NCBI GenBank assembly: GCA_019358895.1
Contig: JAHHIG010000013.1
Span: 1 to 64,000, forward strand
Reading direction: 5' to 3'
Length of the DNA stretch: 64,000 nucleotides
Source: Tildeniella nuda ZEHNDER 1965/U140
GTDB taxonomy: Bacteria > Cyanobacteriota > Cyanobacteriia > Leptolyngbyales > Leptolyngbyaceae
In this document: positions 57,044-63,278 of the stretch, piece after piece
Position numbering within the stretch: the stretch's first letter is position 1
Layout: every line of letters starts with the position of its first letter
The notes under the pieces: model-generated
What the model was told of the DNA's origin: nothing
The model's input: only the letters and a program-made list of their open reading frames with translations
The model's database searches: none
Position numbers and translations under genes: made by a program

Positions 57044-59344
57044 TCAATGAATACGATGCGACTTTGAAGTTGAGCGTTGCTTCAAGTCACGTAGCCGCTG
57101 CTTTAACACCGCCAGGTTGGGCGCATTGCCCCCATAGCGCCAGCGGACATAAGCTTGAGAAATGTCATTGATCGCCCCTGCACGCACCGCAGACTGAGAT
57201 TCGTAAGACTGCCGTGCATACTCTAAAGGGGTTTGGGCAGGTGGTTTGCGGAACCCCTGCATTGCCAGCCAAGTCAGCATTTGCTGGTAAAGACGCTCCA
57301 TTGGCGGCAGCGTTCCTAACCAACGACGATAGCGCCATCCACGCCAACTACGCCAGAGCAGCCAGCCAACAAAGCCGCAGGCAAGCCCCAGCAGCAGCCC
57401 GACGAAAAGACCGACCCAACCGCTTGAAAATAGGCTCATGAGCGATGCGACTGCAAAGGCGATCCAGCCAACCAAGCGTCCGAAACCTTGATTAAGCCAA
57501 CTGGTTACGGGGGAAGGCAACCAACCTGCGACCCATTGCCAAAAGGTTCGCAGCACGCTAAACGTTTGATTCTCTTCAATGGACGGTGGAATCAGTTCAT
57601 GCCCCGGAATGGGATCAAAAGCAAACCAGCCATACTTAGGAAAGAAGACCTCTGTAATGGCATAGGCATCGGTGTTACGAACAACATACAAGCCAGTGAA
57701 GGGATTGAACTCTCCAGGACCAAAGCCTGCTATGAGCCGTGCGGGAATGTTGATCGATCGCAGCATCACAGTAAGCGCTGTCGAGAAATAATCTGGGTAT
57801 CCACCTTGATACTTAAACAAGAATGCTTCTACCAGATCTTCATCGGGTTCTAGAAACGGTAAATCAGGCTGAATGGTATAGCGTTGCTTCACAACTTGAG
57901 CCAAAAACAGCGCTTTTTCATAAGCAGATGTGATGGGTTTTGGCGAGGTTGCAAGCAATGCTTGTGTCCGTTGTCGTACTCGCTTCAAAATTTTAGGCGG
58001 CACGTTGAGATAGTCATCCACAATATTGGGCGGATAGTTCTGTGGCGCTGCTCGAAGCCGGGTACGATCGCGATAAGGAACCTCAGAAACAACCGTATAC
58101 GTTAACCCTTCGCGGAGTTCCAACGGCGATCGTAGGTTGCCATTGGGGTCGATCGCTACCTGTCGTGTGGGAAAGTAAAGTTCCTTTGCCTGAGTCAGCG
58201 CAGGCAACAAATTCGGCAATTCTGATACTGCCGTATACGTTTGAATCACTTCCTTTGTTTTGCTGAGCGAGAGAGGTCGAGGCAAAAAGAATTGATATGA
58301 CCAATCCGGTCGCGTTACCGTGATCGTTTTATCGTTGCGAGAAATCTCCCAACCTTGCCCCAAATAGCGATCGAACGCCAGCACCCGCCAAAACCCTTCC
58401 GCTTGCGAACGGATTCGTAAAACGACTCGTGGCTTCAGCGCACCGCGTAAATTCTGGTTGATGCGGCTATTAAAACCGTAGTAAAAGTTCTCGTCCAGTT
58501 TACCCGGACCATTCCCCTCACCCTGTTTTGAGACACCGCTGCCTCCCTTCTCGGCACCAGATTTGACGTAGCCAGGGTTGATGATGCGGCTACTATCCTC
58601 AAAATCTTTTTGAATTTGGGGGCTAACGGGAAACGATCGCAGTTGGTAGCCTGGAAAGCGAGGTAAACAGGCAAAGATCAGCAGCCCTGACACCAAAATG
58701 ACGAGCAAAAAACCGAGCAACTGTTTGGGAGCTAAGCCTGCTCGTTGCGACGGTGCTTGATGGAGCTGAGTACTCAGACCCAACCGAGAGCGGTAATCCA
58801 GTACCAAAACTGGCAGCGCGATCGACAGAAACAGCAGTAACAGCAGCCCAAACGTCATCGTCTGACTCAAGGTACAGGCAACGCTAATCAGGATCAACCC
58901 GATCACCATTGAGTAGCCCAAATCTTTACGACGTGGCAAATCAAAGCTGTGTAGTACCTGAAGCTGCACCAACAGTTCTGCTAAAACGAGGCGGGTGTCG
59001 TTCAGCTCTCCTCGCAAGCCCACAAAAAATGCTGCTAGTGCCAGCAGCATACCGATCGCAATACAAAACTTTGCAGCAATGTTGCGCTTATGACGCTGCT
59101 GCCAACTCCAGAACGCGCCCATCAGGCTTAGCGGAACTGCCCAGACACTCATGCCAGTCGATGCGGCTACATCAGTGGCAGCAATGCCAACCAGCACCAT
59201 TGCCTGCACCAGCACCCTCAGCAGTAGCGACTCTTCGATTTCAGGTGGCGATTGTGTCTCTAAACGACGCTTGAAGCGATCGGCGATCGCTTGCACCCGT
59301 GCTCGCGCACTCCCCGAGACACCAATCCCAAAATTACCCAACAT
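57044..59344 (-). CDS. TgpA-like membrane protein with degenerate transglutaminase core
   Basis: 766 aa. The N-terminal half (about 35-240) has six or seven transmembrane helices of the DUF3488/TgpA type. An extracytoplasmic transglutaminase-like domain (about 450-600) follows, then another helix pair and a cytoplasmic DUF4129-like end. In active proteins the catalytic Cys is in GYCEHF and the His in HAWVEV. Here the aligned positions read GYPDYF (Pro517) and AYAITEV (Tyr561), while the Asp is kept (FDP, Asp577). So it has lost two of three catalytic residues. It may have become a binding or structural protein. Operon with the downstream GNAT gene. Confidence 0.85.
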   Translation of the reverse strand: MLGNFGIGVSGSARARVQAIADRFKRRLETQSPPEIEESLLLRVLVQAMVLVGIAATDVAASTGMSVWAVPLSLMGAFWSWQQRHKRNIAAKFCIAIGMLLALAAFFVGLRGELNDTRLVLAELLVQLQVLHSFDLPRRKDLGYSMVIGLILISVACTLSQTMTFGLLLLLFLSIALPVLVLDYRSRLGLSTQLHQAPSQRAGLAPKQLLGFLLVILVSGLLIFACLPRFPGYQLRSFPVSPQIQKDFEDSSRIINPGYVKSGAEKGGSGVSKQGEGNGPGKLDENFYYGFNSRINQNLRGALKPRVVLRIRSQAEGFWRVLAFDRYLGQGWEISRNDKTITVTRPDWSYQFFLPRPLSLSKTKEVIQTYTAVSELPNLLPALTQAKELYFPTRQVAIDPNGNLRSPLELREGLTYTVVSEVPYRDRTRLRAAPQNYPPNIVDDYLNVPPKILKRVRQRTQALLATSPKPITSAYEKALFLAQVVKQRYTIQPDLPFLEPDEDLVEAFLFKYQGGYPDYFSTALTVMLRSINIPARLIAGFGPGEFNPFTGLYVVRNTDAYAITEVFFPKYGWFAFDPIPGHELIPPSIEENQTFSVLRTFWQWVAGWLPSPVTSWLNQGFGRLVGWIAFAVASLMSLFSSGWVGLFVGLLLGLACGFVGWLLWRSWRGWRYRRWLGTLPPMERLYQQMLTWLAMQGFRKPPAQTPLEYARQSYESQSAVRAGAINDISQAYVRWRYGGNAPNLAVLKQRLRDLKQRSTSKSHRIH

Positions 59345-59686: not shown

Positions 59687-60757
59687 TTAGTCAGTGATAC
59701 GAATGGCAAAAGACAGCGGTGTCTGCTCGTCCAAGCAAACTTCCAGGGTGTAAGGCTGCTGTGGCTGGAAGTCAAACAACTCTACACTCAGGCTACCAGC
59801 CGTAGAACGTTGAGCACTTGCCTGTACATCTGCCCCCCGCAGTGTAATGCTGCCACCAGATGGCACTGTTGCCTGAAGACGCAGTTTTGCACCCGTTGCG
59901 TCTAAGGCGTAATCTGCCTGCAAGCTTAAGGCTCCAAGATCAGTTAGCCACTGGCGCTCAAGTTTGGGTTGGGTCAAAGAAATTGGCAGCGTTAAAGCCG
60001 TCATAATTTCACGTGCAGCCAGCAGCGACAGCACCATCTGCTGTGCTGGCACCGCAGATTCATAACTCGATGGGTAATTGGTACCCGGTGGCGGCGATGC
60101 TACCGCACCAGAGCGAGCGGGCGATGTCATTACCATGCCCGCCAAATGGTTGAGCGATTGTGATTGACCGGGAAATAACGCTTCGACCGCGTTCACCAGC
60201 TTTGCGCCTTCCAGTAAAGACGATTGCACCGCTTCTTGGCAACGTTCCAGCAGTTGCCCCAAAAGCCCCTCAGGTAGTTGGATAGGCAGATTCAGCGCTT
60301 TAAGCTGCTGCAACCAGACTTGAGCCGGGACTCTTTGGTTGGTTGTGCTCACGGGAGCAGTCGTAGCCGAGCCAATGACTCCATAGGCAGTTTCAGCCTC
60401 GTAGTCATGAACTTCTGTTTCCCAGGGGAACAGAGGTGGATTACGTTGCATTTCGCTTTGTAATCGATGTTTCAACAGGGTATGAAAACGGTCTTGCACA
60501 GCGGGTATCTCTCCAAGTTTTAAGAGGTTTTTCCGTTCGGAGGAGTAAACGTCGGATCTAAGATGACCGAAATTTCCAGCGGATTCAGCCTGAGAAATGA
60601 ATAAATCCGGCGCGTTAATTGTTTGAGCGCCGTATTGTTCATTGTTCCACTCTATAACTGGAGCAACCACCCCAGAGTCATCTGAAGTGGTAAAAGCAAC
60701 CAGGTCTTGCAGTAGTTCGAGGAGATTTCTCTGGAGAGCTTCCGAGTCATCATTCAT
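59687..60757 (-). CDS. patU: PatU-like protein
   Basis: A 356-aa protein directly downstream of hetZ (11 bp gap), the place of patU in filamentous cyanobacteria. In Anabaena PCC 7120 it is split into patU5 and patU3. The N-terminal part is variable; the middle (VWLQQLKALNLPIQLPEGL) and the C-terminal beta-rich domain (ending PYTLEVCLDEQTPLSFAIRI) are the conserved parts. PatU3 affects heterocyst pattern and interacts with HetZ in Anabaena; its role elsewhere is unknown. Identification rests mainly on context and overall pattern. Confidence 0.75.
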   Translation of the reverse strand: MNDDSEALQRNLLELLQDLVAFTTSDDSGVVAPVIEWNNEQYGAQTINAPDLFISQAESAGNFGHLRSDVYSSERKNLLKLGEIPAVQDRFHTLLKHRLQSEMQRNPPLFPWETEVHDYEAETAYGVIGSATTAPVSTTNQRVPAQVWLQQLKALNLPIQLPEGLLGQLLERCQEAVQSSLLEGAKLVNAVEALFPGQSQSLNHLAGMVMTSPARSGAVASPPPGTNYPSSYESAVPAQQMVLSLLAAREIMTALTLPISLTQPKLERQWLTDLGALSLQADYALDATGAKLRLQATVPSGGSITLRGADVQASAQRSTAGSLSVELFDFQPQQPYTLEVCLDEQTPLSFAIRITD

Positions 60758-60768
60758 GGTATGAATTC

Positions 60769-61932
60769 CTATTCATCGGCAGAGGCATCTTGTCCGGACA
60801 CTAAATAATTACGAATTTCCCACGCTTGCTCAAGTAGCTTAAACCACTGCTTACGCACTTGGGTAATGGTGCAACTAAGGGATTGGGCGATCGCAGCATC
60901 TGTCAGCCGTTTTCGCTTCAGTTGAAGTAATGCAAGCTGCTGCGGATCCAGCTGTTCCTGAAAGGATTGCCACTGCTGTAGGGTTAAGCCAAGATTGCGC
61001 TCCAGATCGGCTTCAAGCCACTGATGCACTAACTCCCAACGATGCGATAGCGCAAAGCGAATCAAATGGTACTTAAACCGCTGCTGCAAGTAATCCCGTT
61101 GGCGTGGCGTTAGCCCCAAGATTACCTCAATTTCGTTTGCAGGCAAATCTTGTAGCCGCAGAGTAAAGTAATCAGCACAGTCAGTCTGCTTGCGCTCTTC
61201 TAGATACGCCATCAGTTCAGCGACAACAGCCTGCCGCAGACTATCCTCTGGTTGCTCTGGCTCTTGGGCAACCATTTGCTCTCGCACCTGTTGCATTGAT
61301 GCCGCATTCCAGGGGCTGTCGCCGTCGCTAGCCCCACCGTCAGCAGCACGCTCAATATCAACAGGTGTTTCGATCGGCTGCTGCTGCGAGAAGGTCTGAG
61401 CACGAAGAATAATCAATTGCTGGTTACGCCGTCCTGGTAGGGGAATGCGACGCTTGCCATAGCGCTCACTAAACGCCATGTATTCTGCGAGTTGCAAGAG
61501 GGTGCGTGGCTGGTAGGTGGTTGGTAGCTGGGTCTCGCGCCGGAACGCATTCAACGCTTCCATGTAGAAACCCTGAAGGAAGTCTTCGATCAGCGTAAGG
61601 CGGGCTTGATAGCTCGATTGAGTCTGCGGTGGGGTAATGTAGCGATACACGATCGCGCTCAACGTACTATGCAAATCCACCCGTCCACGCTTAGACCCCA
61701 ACTTGTAATAGTGCAGACATTGTTGGAGACGATGCCTCGCCAACGCCGTTGCCCAAGTATCCACTTCACCAGATGCTTGAATGCGCTTACTCTCGACGCA
61801 AATGCGCGCGACTTCTTGCGATAGACGAGTTGCCACATCCAAGCAGTTTTGCTCAGAAGCGTTGGTTGACAGCTTTAACTCGTCCAGCAGCAGTTGAAAA
61901 ATTGCCTCCACGCCTTGGCAGATATCCCCCAC
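60769..61932 (-). CDS. hetZ: HetZ, heterocyst differentiation regulator family
   Basis: A 387-aa protein with the strongly conserved HetZ core: ATALARHRLQQCLHYYKLGSKRGRVDLHSTL split over residues about 60-95, then FLQGFYMEALNAFRRE, EYMAFSERYGKRRIPLPGRR and LGLTPRQRDYLQQRFKYHLIRF. A putative helix-turn-helix lies near the C-terminus (DAAIAQSLSCTITQVRKQWF). In Anabaena HetZ is a DNA-binding regulator that acts with HetR early in heterocyst formation. Homologues also occur in filamentous strains without heterocysts. Start is GTG at 61932; an upstream stop excludes a much longer N-terminus. Operon with patU. Confidence 0.9.
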   Translation of the reverse strand: MGDICQGVEAIFQLLLDELKLSTNASEQNCLDVATRLSQEVARICVESKRIQASGEVDTWATALARHRLQQCLHYYKLGSKRGRVDLHSTLSAIVYRYITPPQTQSSYQARLTLIEDFLQGFYMEALNAFRRETQLPTTYQPRTLLQLAEYMAFSERYGKRRIPLPGRRNQQLIILRAQTFSQQQPIETPVDIERAADGGASDGDSPWNAASMQQVREQMVAQEPEQPEDSLRQAVVAELMAYLEERKQTDCADYFTLRLQDLPANEIEVILGLTPRQRDYLQQRFKYHLIRFALSHRWELVHQWLEADLERNLGLTLQQWQSFQEQLDPQQLALLQLKRKRLTDAAIAQSLSCTITQVRKQWFKLLEQAWEIRNYLVSGQDASADE

Positions 61933-62063
61933 GGTATTTAACGCCTAACGATAACAAAAACTAAAGCCAGTTGAACTAATTTTGACCACAATACGATGGC
62001 ATCGTCTAGGTCAAACCACTGAAGCTTCACAACACGCCCATAAAACAGGAGCCGCTTTCAAAA

Positions 62064-62543
62064 ATGGATATCGATCAACAAATTCAGGAACTTATCAATG
62101 ATGCGCCTCAAGACGGTAGTACACCTACCTTGGTTGCTACGATCGCTCCTGTGCTGAAATTTTTAGCGTCACAGTTGCGTCATGCACAGTACTATATTGT
62201 GCAGACTCTTAACCAAAATTGGGCAATCACCGCATTAGAAAATCGAGCACAACCCGGACTCGAAAAAAACGTCATCTACGCCTTCTCTAACTTGAAGGAT
62301 GTGTCAACTGGTCCCTACCCCATGCACGATCCGCAGATGATCGCGCTGCCTATACCTGTGACGCACATCCTCTTCCAAATGCTCGCGACGGAAATGATTC
62401 ACAGCATCATTTTCTTTGATACCCCTGGTAACACAACCGCTGGCACTGAAATTCAACGTGAACAGCTCAGTGGGCTTATCGAGTCTCATCTCTTGCAAAC
62501 GCAGCAAGCGCCAGAAACCACACTGCCTCCTAACATTGCCTAA
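62064..62543 (+). CDS. Conserved cyanobacterial protein of unknown function
   Basis: A 159-aa protein divergent from hetZ, with 131 bp between starts. It has an alternating hydrophobic pattern: LVATIAPVLKFLASQLRHAQYYIVQTLNQNW, written here only as its outline around residues 23-53, then IYAFSNLKD, ALPIPVTHILFQMLATEM and IIFFDTPGNT. No signal peptide, membrane segment or known catalytic motif. The proximity suggests a shared regulatory region with hetZ. Confidence 0.7.
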   Translation: MDIDQQIQELINDAPQDGSTPTLVATIAPVLKFLASQLRHAQYYIVQTLNQNWAITALENRAQPGLEKNVIYAFSNLKDVSTGPYPMHDPQMIALPIPVTHILFQMLATEMIHSIIFFDTPGNTTAGTEIQREQLSGLIESHLLQTQQAPETTLPPNIA

Positions 62544-62924
62544 CCGTCTTCCTTCAGTAAATGGCTTGGCGCACTGGCTTGGAAGCCTGGTTCTCTTGGA
62601 AGCCTAGTTCACTGACTCCCGCATCATTCTAGTCGCACGTTTTCAAGCAGGAACTTTAAGCTTTATGCCACCGGAGCGATGCCACACCATACTGTTGTAC
62701 CAATTCTTAAAATCGCCCTACAGATTCGTTTTTGCTGCTGACCGCTGACCGCTGACCGCCAGCCGAAGCTTGCTTATATAGCCACAATTTAGTGAAATGG
62801 TATTAGGTCGCCCCAAGACGTGAACAAATGTAACGATATTGCCGTCATGGCGGCATGGTGTCTTGACAGCAATCGATTCAGTCGATATTCTGACTTCATA
62901 CCCGGGTACACAATCGAGAGTTCT
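62544..62924. other. Spacer with heptamer repeat
   Basis: About 380 bp. Contains three tandem TGACCGC heptamers at 62733-62765. No further gene seen; the ORF extension from 62820 is not supported. Confidence 0.5.
62733..62765. repeat. Tandem TGACCGC heptamers
   Basis: TGCTGACCGCTGACCGCTGACCGCC: three perfect tandem copies, same motif as the purH insert. Confidence 0.92.
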
Positions 62925-63278
62925 ATGCAAGACAAGCAGAAGGTCACACTATACCTCCCTCCAGAGCTGCACCGTCAATTGAAGGTTCGCGCAGCGCTGG
63001 ATTCTGAGACGATGACGGATATTGCCCAACGGGCTATTACGTTCTATCTTTCTCACGCGGAGTTGGTTGACGAATATGAGGATGCTAAGCACGGGCGACT
63101 GCACAGAGTCTATGCATGTCCTGATTGTTCTTCTCCTTCTGTCATAAGCGGTGATGCTTTAATTTCACTGCGCTCCCAGTCCAACATTTCGGTTGACGAT
63201 CGAGTTCCAGCTGGCAGAGGGCAAAATGTCAGTTCTTCAGCTGACTCTCAGGGTGAGGGCGAACTGGTTCCCTGTTGA
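62925..63278 (+). CDS. Ribbon-helix-helix-like small protein with CxxC tail
   Basis: A 117-aa protein. The first 50 residues look like a ribbon-helix-helix DNA-binding fold (KVTLYLPPELHRQLKVRAA, then SETMTDIAQRAITFYL). The rest is disordered, with a single CPDC motif. The start is ATG at 62925 (MQDKQKVTLYL), because the upstream extension to 62820 lacks family-like sequence. It could be a regulator of the following Ycf46-like gene, 90 bp downstream in the same direction (inference). Confidence 0.7.
   Translation: MQDKQKVTLYLPPELHRQLKVRAALDSETMTDIAQRAITFYLSHAELVDEYEDAKHGRLHRVYACPDCSSPSVISGDALISLRSQSNISVDDRVPAGRGQNVSSSADSQGEGELVPC

Follow-up and report, generated by a model that had tools for sequence, protein, structure and literature searches.

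A 64,000-nucleotide stretch from Tildeniella nuda ZEHNDER 1965/U140 (assembly GCA_019358895.1, contig JAHHIG010000013.1, positions 1-64,000 of the forward strand; hereafter the window) carries the genes hetZ and patU and, transcribed away from hetZ, a small open reading frame (ORF) of 159 codons, here called ORF159. The divergent arrangement of ORF159 and hetZ is conserved across many families, and ORF159 also occurs where hetZ-patU is absent; in three such genomes it lies beside the transglutaminase gene tgpA. The reading we favor, and consider probable, is that the locus is an ordinary hetZ-patU operon of a heterocyst-free filament and that ORF159 is a conserved neighbor with an independent job, held in place by back-to-back promoters: a known module, in other words, next to a deeply conserved, undescribed and probably independent gene. 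The initial annotation had described hetZ-patU with a divergent 159-aa gene across a 131-bp gap, and the open reading frames lie where it had placed them; patU follows hetZ after 11 bp, and 131 bp separate the divergent hetZ and ORF159.

60769-61932, minus strand: hetZ, 387 aa, GTG start (NCBIfam NF037963)
59687-60757, minus strand: patU, 356 aa, unsplit (position after hetZ plus a 12-row family alignment)
62064-62543, plus strand: ORF159, the divergent 159-aa gene, ATG start (conserved ORF, 159 of 194 genomes)
61933-62063, no strand: divergent region shared by hetZ and ORF159, 131 bp

ORF159 is a real gene. Of 58 genomes of relatives, the host's own included, 54 have a match, as do 159 of the 194 genomes of the class; among the matches listed, one is partial and another contains a stop. 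Across these 194 genomes HetZ exceeds its cut-off in 98, any HetZ-family match is present in 105, and HetR in 99. All but one of the 98 HetZ genomes have ORF159 (97/98); in 92 of the 98 the two genes are adjacent, the match ends lying less than 800 bp apart, and every one of these pairs is divergent. This count draws on the 98 HetZ matches above the cut-off and on 120 listed ORF159 matches, which cover every HetZ genome that has one and some of the rest. Genomes with a HetZ-family match below the cut-off only (G037, G041, G043, G048, G054, G069 and G199) were counted as being without HetZ, G043 and G054 each having a PatU match. As to the exceptions, ORF159 and hetZ are 409 kb apart in G055 and 317 kb apart in G200, while in G053, G071 and G111 they are on different contigs and other genes flank ORF159; in G147, where the contig ends 396 bp upstream of the HetZ match, no ORF159 was found. 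The initial annotation had named a lack of synteny between the 159-aa gene and hetZ in other filamentous strains as the observation that would count against it: what was found is adjacency and divergence in 92 of 98.

Conservation of this order was compared to that of two further divergent pairs of the window, topA-ndhB and purH-esterase, which served as controls in 77 of the 194 genomes, 40 of them with HetZ. One topA match was counted per genome (the N-terminal piece for G041), and the N-terminal piece was used where purH is split. In the shared HetZ genomes ORF159 and hetZ are adjacent in 37/40, compared to 28/40 for topA-ndhB and 26/39 for purH-esterase (Fisher p 0.02 and 0.005, respectively, genomes being taken as independent). 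Over all 77 genomes the control pairs are adjacent in 38/77 and 31/70. The divergent ORF159-hetZ arrangement is far beyond chance and is kept better than the controls, although divergent neighbors are generally well kept in these genomes; the label 'extraordinary synteny' was moderated, since both control pairs are also well conserved.

ORF159 extends well beyond HetZ. It is present in 62 of the 96 genomes without HetZ over the cut-off; of the 89 that have no HetZ-family match at all, 56 carry it. Twenty ORF159 places (L111-L130) were fetched, all from genomes without HetZ over the cut-off: in 17 no hetZ, patU, sds or tgpA was seen nearby, the neighbors being mixed, with a few recurring contexts. 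In genomes G069, G041 and G171 the immediate divergent neighbor of ORF159 is the gene that in the window is the next one past patU:

57044-59344, minus strand: TgpA-type transglutaminase (Pfam TgpA_N, Transglut_core, DUF4129)

Genome profile searches of G069, G041 and G171 gave no patU match, no HetR match and no HetZ over the cut-off; G041 and G069 each have one weak HetZ-family match. The G069 contig carries genes with the Pfam domains Amidase_3, Asp_Glu_race and polyprenyl_synt – which we take to be amiC, murI and sds – followed by ORF159, divergent from a TgpA_N gene, presumably tgpA. With hetZ and patU in place, the order amiC-murI-sds-ORF159/hetZ-patU-tgpA (the slash marks the point of divergence) is found in loci L048, L055 and L061 and, without visible amiC, in L068, L093 and L094, while L117/L169 shows the block amiC-murI-sds-ORF159/tgpA without hetZ-patU. 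The block of amiC (Amidase_3), murI and sds adjoins ORF159 in several families, and ORF159, HetZ, PatU and the TgpA gene occur together in 31 of 40 named loci, several of the remaining loci being short. A related observation concerns L063 (a Richelia sp. CSU_2_1 metagenome-assembled genome), in which there is no hetZ within the 6.9 kb examined around ORF159, the neighbors of which we take to be an sds gene and a maf-like gene. In Nostoc PCC 7120 amiC1, amiC2 and murI are alr0092-alr0094 and hetZ is alr0099, which fits the block (PMC8472315; this and the papers below are cited from excerpts of their text). The old arrangement has ORF159 divergent from hetZ-patU-tgpA; in some families (amiC-murI-)sds flanks ORF159 on the side away from hetZ.

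A TgpA tree of 44 rows places G069 as sister to the f32 group, which has HetZ (Shimodaira-Hasegawa-like approximate likelihood ratio test 93), with the HetZ-bearing G147 next outside (93); its sample comprises only loci fetched via ORF159 or HetZ and is lopsided. We take the f32 group to be Nostocaceae, given its strong HetR scores and, in some members, short patU frames. Because G069 nests beside the HetZ-bearing f32 group and G147, loss of hetZ-patU is favored in this line, and exact loss of the two genes would be the simplest account. The converse – insertion of hetZ-patU between ORF159 and tgpA – is disfavored for G069 by the tree; for G041 and G171 it is unsure. On the reading we favor, the exceptions would have arisen by loss of hetZ-patU and not by late insertion.

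One hundred regions between ORF159 and hetZ, for which a single start rule was used throughout, were thinned to 58 representatives by shared 8-mers. Short elements recur near both starts. The 70 nt nearest hetZ contain TTAGG/TAGGG in 28 of the 58, mononucleotide shuffles giving an expectation of 7.1; GTCTA is found in the 110 nt nearest ORF159 in 21 of the 58 (6.2 expected). GGGTCT follows in 13 of the 58, an example being TATGTTAGGGTCTTTGTTA, about 25 nt before hetZ in L041. In L041, L046, L056, L060, L061 and L075 the two elements are some 37-39 nt apart: were they promoter cores, the upstream promoter parts would overlap. On the reading we favor, the hetZ and ORF159 promoters would stand back to back, separated by only a short stretch of DNA, and the overlap would hold the genes together, as moving one would damage the promoter of the other. 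In the window TTAGG begins 16 nt before the hetZ start and GTCTA is absent. The region also holds an inverted repeat, ACGATG-G-CATCGT (61993-62005), which is kept in L003 and not in L004, L005 or L007.

Shared control by HetR was also considered. The HetR-type site GGGN5CCC is absent from the window region, from all 58 representatives and from all 80 distinct regions scanned (2.5 expected; the longest open frame delimited regions L091-L103). The DIF1 sequence TCCGGA is likewise absent from the window region and is not enriched, being found in 6 of the 80 regions compared to 2.6 expected, with shuffles reaching 8. An 11-base HetR core gave only two-mismatch matches, in 10 regions. With neither GGGN5CCC nor TCCGGA (forms as in PMC7377430) enriched, shared HetR control was set aside; a degenerate or distant site may exist. 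In Anabaena HetR acts on hetZ via a recognition site (PMC7377430), and hetZ is a direct target of FurC (PMC10406281).

The protein itself falls into no described family. The window protein has no Pfam or NCBIfam match, and a PDB sequence search returned only a chitinase (E 2.1). When 28 relatives were searched, twelve Pfam families received hits (E up to 10), each from no more than two members; the best match, to ZapD in one member (E 8.5e-4), was treated as chance. The predicted model (pLDDT 87, pTM 0.83) consists of two N-terminal helices followed by six strands and three further helices. It found no match at E <=0.001 in a viral structure library or in the PDB structure search (best 2.9e-3). 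By Z score the model is closest to two chains of chloroplast FtsHi complexes, 8xks_I (7.0) and 8xqw_Q (6.8), both presumably Tic22-type, and to the Tic22 proteins of Anabaena (4ev1) and Plasmodium (4e6z), at 6.1 each. These alignments span 84-94 residues, and apart from TTHA0547 (5.6) the next Z is 3.8; values below 8 may reflect a common arrangement. Membership of Tic22 by sequence was rejected: PF04278 was hit by none of the 28 members, and hhalign against 17 cyanobacterial Tic22 sequences gave a probability of 0.4%, as low as for ORF159 against PatU. There is no hydrophobic stretch at the N-terminus, and ORF159 is thus probably cytosolic. The model lends modest support to a Tic22-like fold, and ORF159 is predicted to be a soluble alpha/beta protein, possibly of that fold. 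On the reading we favor it would be a small soluble cyanobacterial protein, possibly Tic22-like, whose own job would need neither HetZ nor PatU.

How, then, is the association with hetZ best explained? The initial annotation had suggested a third component alongside HetZ and PatU with an ancestral function; on this view ORF159 would be that component, co-regulated with hetZ through the shared region and acting on HetZ, PatU or the divisome. In its favor are the divergent adjacency in 92 of 98 HetZ genomes, a share higher than that of either control pair, the recurring short elements in the shared region and the presence of ORF159 in 97/98 HetZ genomes versus 62/96 others. Yet the range of ORF159 exceeds that of HetZ, and the gene can keep its position when HetZ is missing, as it does next to tgpA in three genomes that lack a patU or HetR match; for this reason the proposal is the weaker reading, and we judge it unlikely. 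It also sits poorly with the genomes that keep both genes apart (G053, G055, G071, G111 and G200) and with the lack of GGGN5CCC in the shared region of the 58 representatives. Several points nonetheless weigh against an independent neighbor held by its promoter. The 92/98 adjacency exceeds that of both control pairs, and a pressure beyond that on ordinary divergent neighbors may act; ORF159 is near-universal with HetZ and present in 65% of the other genomes (Fisher p 3e-11, phylogeny not removed), which a functional link would fit too. The shuffles behind the promoter elements leave common descent in place. In the TgpA tree G041 and G171 are on long branches, and the well-supported branches are compatible with a single origin of the HetZ-less state. 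Lastly, the Tic22 likeness comes without sequence support (hhalign 0.4%) and with Z below 8.

A different possibility is that ORF159 belongs with the envelope genes amiC, murI, sds and tgpA, for example as a Tic22-like chaperone or adaptor, and that hetZ-patU is found there as PatU acts on septum formation. The sds-ORF159/hetZ-patU-tgpA block in six loci (L048, L055, L061, L068, L093, L094), its counterpart without hetZ-patU in L117/L169 and the Tic22 structures among the top fold matches all speak for it. We nevertheless think it very unlikely: 17 of the 20 places without HetZ over the cut-off show neither sds nor tgpA beside ORF159, many loci of the window's family have slr0373 and AAA-type genes where sds would be, and the protein lacks the hydrophobic N-terminal stretch, hence the export signal, that a Tic22 would have. 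A bolder version makes ORF159 an undescribed family of Tic22-like fold that links envelope genes to the control of septa by HetZ/PatU, with sds-ORF159/hetZ-patU-tgpA as an ancient multicellularity locus from which hetR-less lineages that may have abandoned the filament excised exactly hetZ-patU; this is quite unlikely. A last explanation, inherited gene order with no functional reason behind it, draws on the control pairs, which are themselves adjacent in about two thirds of HetZ genomes (28/40 and 26/39). These pairs are, however, less conserved than ORF159 and hetZ in the same genomes (37/40), and the other side of ORF159 varies: mere inheritance is the least credible of these accounts, and highly improbable. 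The independent neighbor with back-to-back promoters thus remains the reading we prefer.

HetZ scores 659.9 bits against NCBIfam NF037963 (cut-off 550; residues 11-375) and 539.4 bits against the HetZ-related model NF037964, below the 612 cut-off of the latter. A weak sigma-70-like stretch lies near its C-terminus (TIGR02937, E 7e-4, below the model cut-off; best residues 325-369). The window's PatU has no Pfam or NCBIfam match; it was recognized by place, 11 bp past hetZ, and by 37-71% identity to the 11 others in a 12-member alignment (A3). Comparison of loci and this 12-row alignment show the gene in the patU position to be homologous across families, and the A3 profile finds a single place in the host genome. 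The pair is thus hetZ-patU, as the initial annotation had it. By analogy with Anabaena, HetZ most likely regulates transcription, and PatU most likely acts together with HetZ and restrains cell division; PatU3 of Anabaena is reported to bind HetZ and to limit septal growth (PMC12288457). There are three HetZ-family matches in the host genome, that is, two HetZ-family genes besides hetZ. Elsewhere, a 936-aa open frame (L092:3489-6299, genome G124) consists of most of HetZ joined to the TgpA transglutaminase; the patU profile found no match in the whole of G124, and the frame may be a deletion fusion.

The host is very probably without heterocysts, because no nifH exceeds the cut-off in its genome of 6.08 Mb (96% complete; the best TIGR01287 match is 225.4 bits compared to 394.35) and its relatives are of the Stenomitos/Leptolyngbya type. 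The nearest five named loci, across which ORF159 identity is 79-88%, are from Stenomitos frigidus, Lyngbya sp. HA4199-MV5, Leptolyngbya sp. ES-bin-22, Stenomitos rutilans and Leptolyngbya sp. FACHB-321. The gene hetR, the search for which had been suggested at the outset, is present (303 aa; L001:844-1755, contig 20). Upstream of it a small ORF (L001:13-204) bears an RGSGR motif, a feature reported for patX in other filamentous strains, and would fit as a candidate patX. The initial annotation had further supposed that, if the strain lacks heterocysts, the locus may show an ancestral function of HetZ/PatU. The premise holds up, heterocysts being very probably absent and hetR present; the idea is not new. 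In 2010 hetR, hetZ and patU3 were listed among ten genes found only in filamentous species, and filament formation was proposed as their possible more general function (PMC2821919), so that an ancestral or general role of hetZ-patU is already in print. The three are described as core genes of filamentous species (PMC7377430), and hetR and hetZ-patU are present in the heterocyst-free Leptolyngbya BL0902 (PMC11298460).

Downstream of ORF159 the window holds a further gene:

62820-63278, plus strand: slr0373-family gene (NF052617, 144.3 bits, cut-off 100)

This gene, whose NCBIfam name refers to blue-light stress response, sits between ORF159 and what we take to be an AAA-type ATPase gene, compared with the other loci by blast only. 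The order ORF159, slr0373, AAA-type gene recurs in part of the loci from the window's family.

Taken together, one small uncharacterized neighbor is kept by hetZ across many families, and there are hetR-less genomes in which hetZ and patU are missing from a block that is otherwise complete. The locus therefore offers both a basis for comparison and a target gene with which to address the ancestral function of hetZ-patU, with the caution that conserved position alone does not place ORF159 in the HetZ/PatU system.

Several known systems invite comparison. The best Foldseek E-value for ORF159 (2.9e-3) is to TTHA0547 of Thermus (2z0r), described as a hypothetical protein of about 100 residues, with Z 5.6 over 92 residues and 5% identity. 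ORF159 may resemble Tic22 (PF04278) in fold; it is shorter and has neither a sequence match nor a visible export signal, and the host genome encodes a Tic22 at another place (G000:C9). In the excerpted literature on the hetZ/alr0099 neighborhood and its synteny we found no paper on ORF159 beside hetZ, though there may be an earlier mention. In Anabaena a small gene numbered next to hetZ, asr0098, changed 2.1-fold in a mutant in which hetZ changed 4.1-fold (PMC7065334); it may or may not correspond to ORF159. Leptolyngbya sp. BL0902, a heterocyst-free strain of Leptolyngbya type in which Cpf1 has been used to make deletions, has hetR, patX and hetZ-patU, and a divergent neighbor of hetZ is not mentioned in the excerpted text (PMC11298460). 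In contrast to the Anabaena locus, that of the window stands in a host without nifH over the cut-off and has no GGGN5CCC in its shared region. As in Anabaena PCC 7120 (alr0099, asr0100 patU5, alr0101 patU3), patU lies directly downstream of hetZ (PMC7377430, PMC12288457): split in Anabaena (PMC7377430), it is a single gene here.

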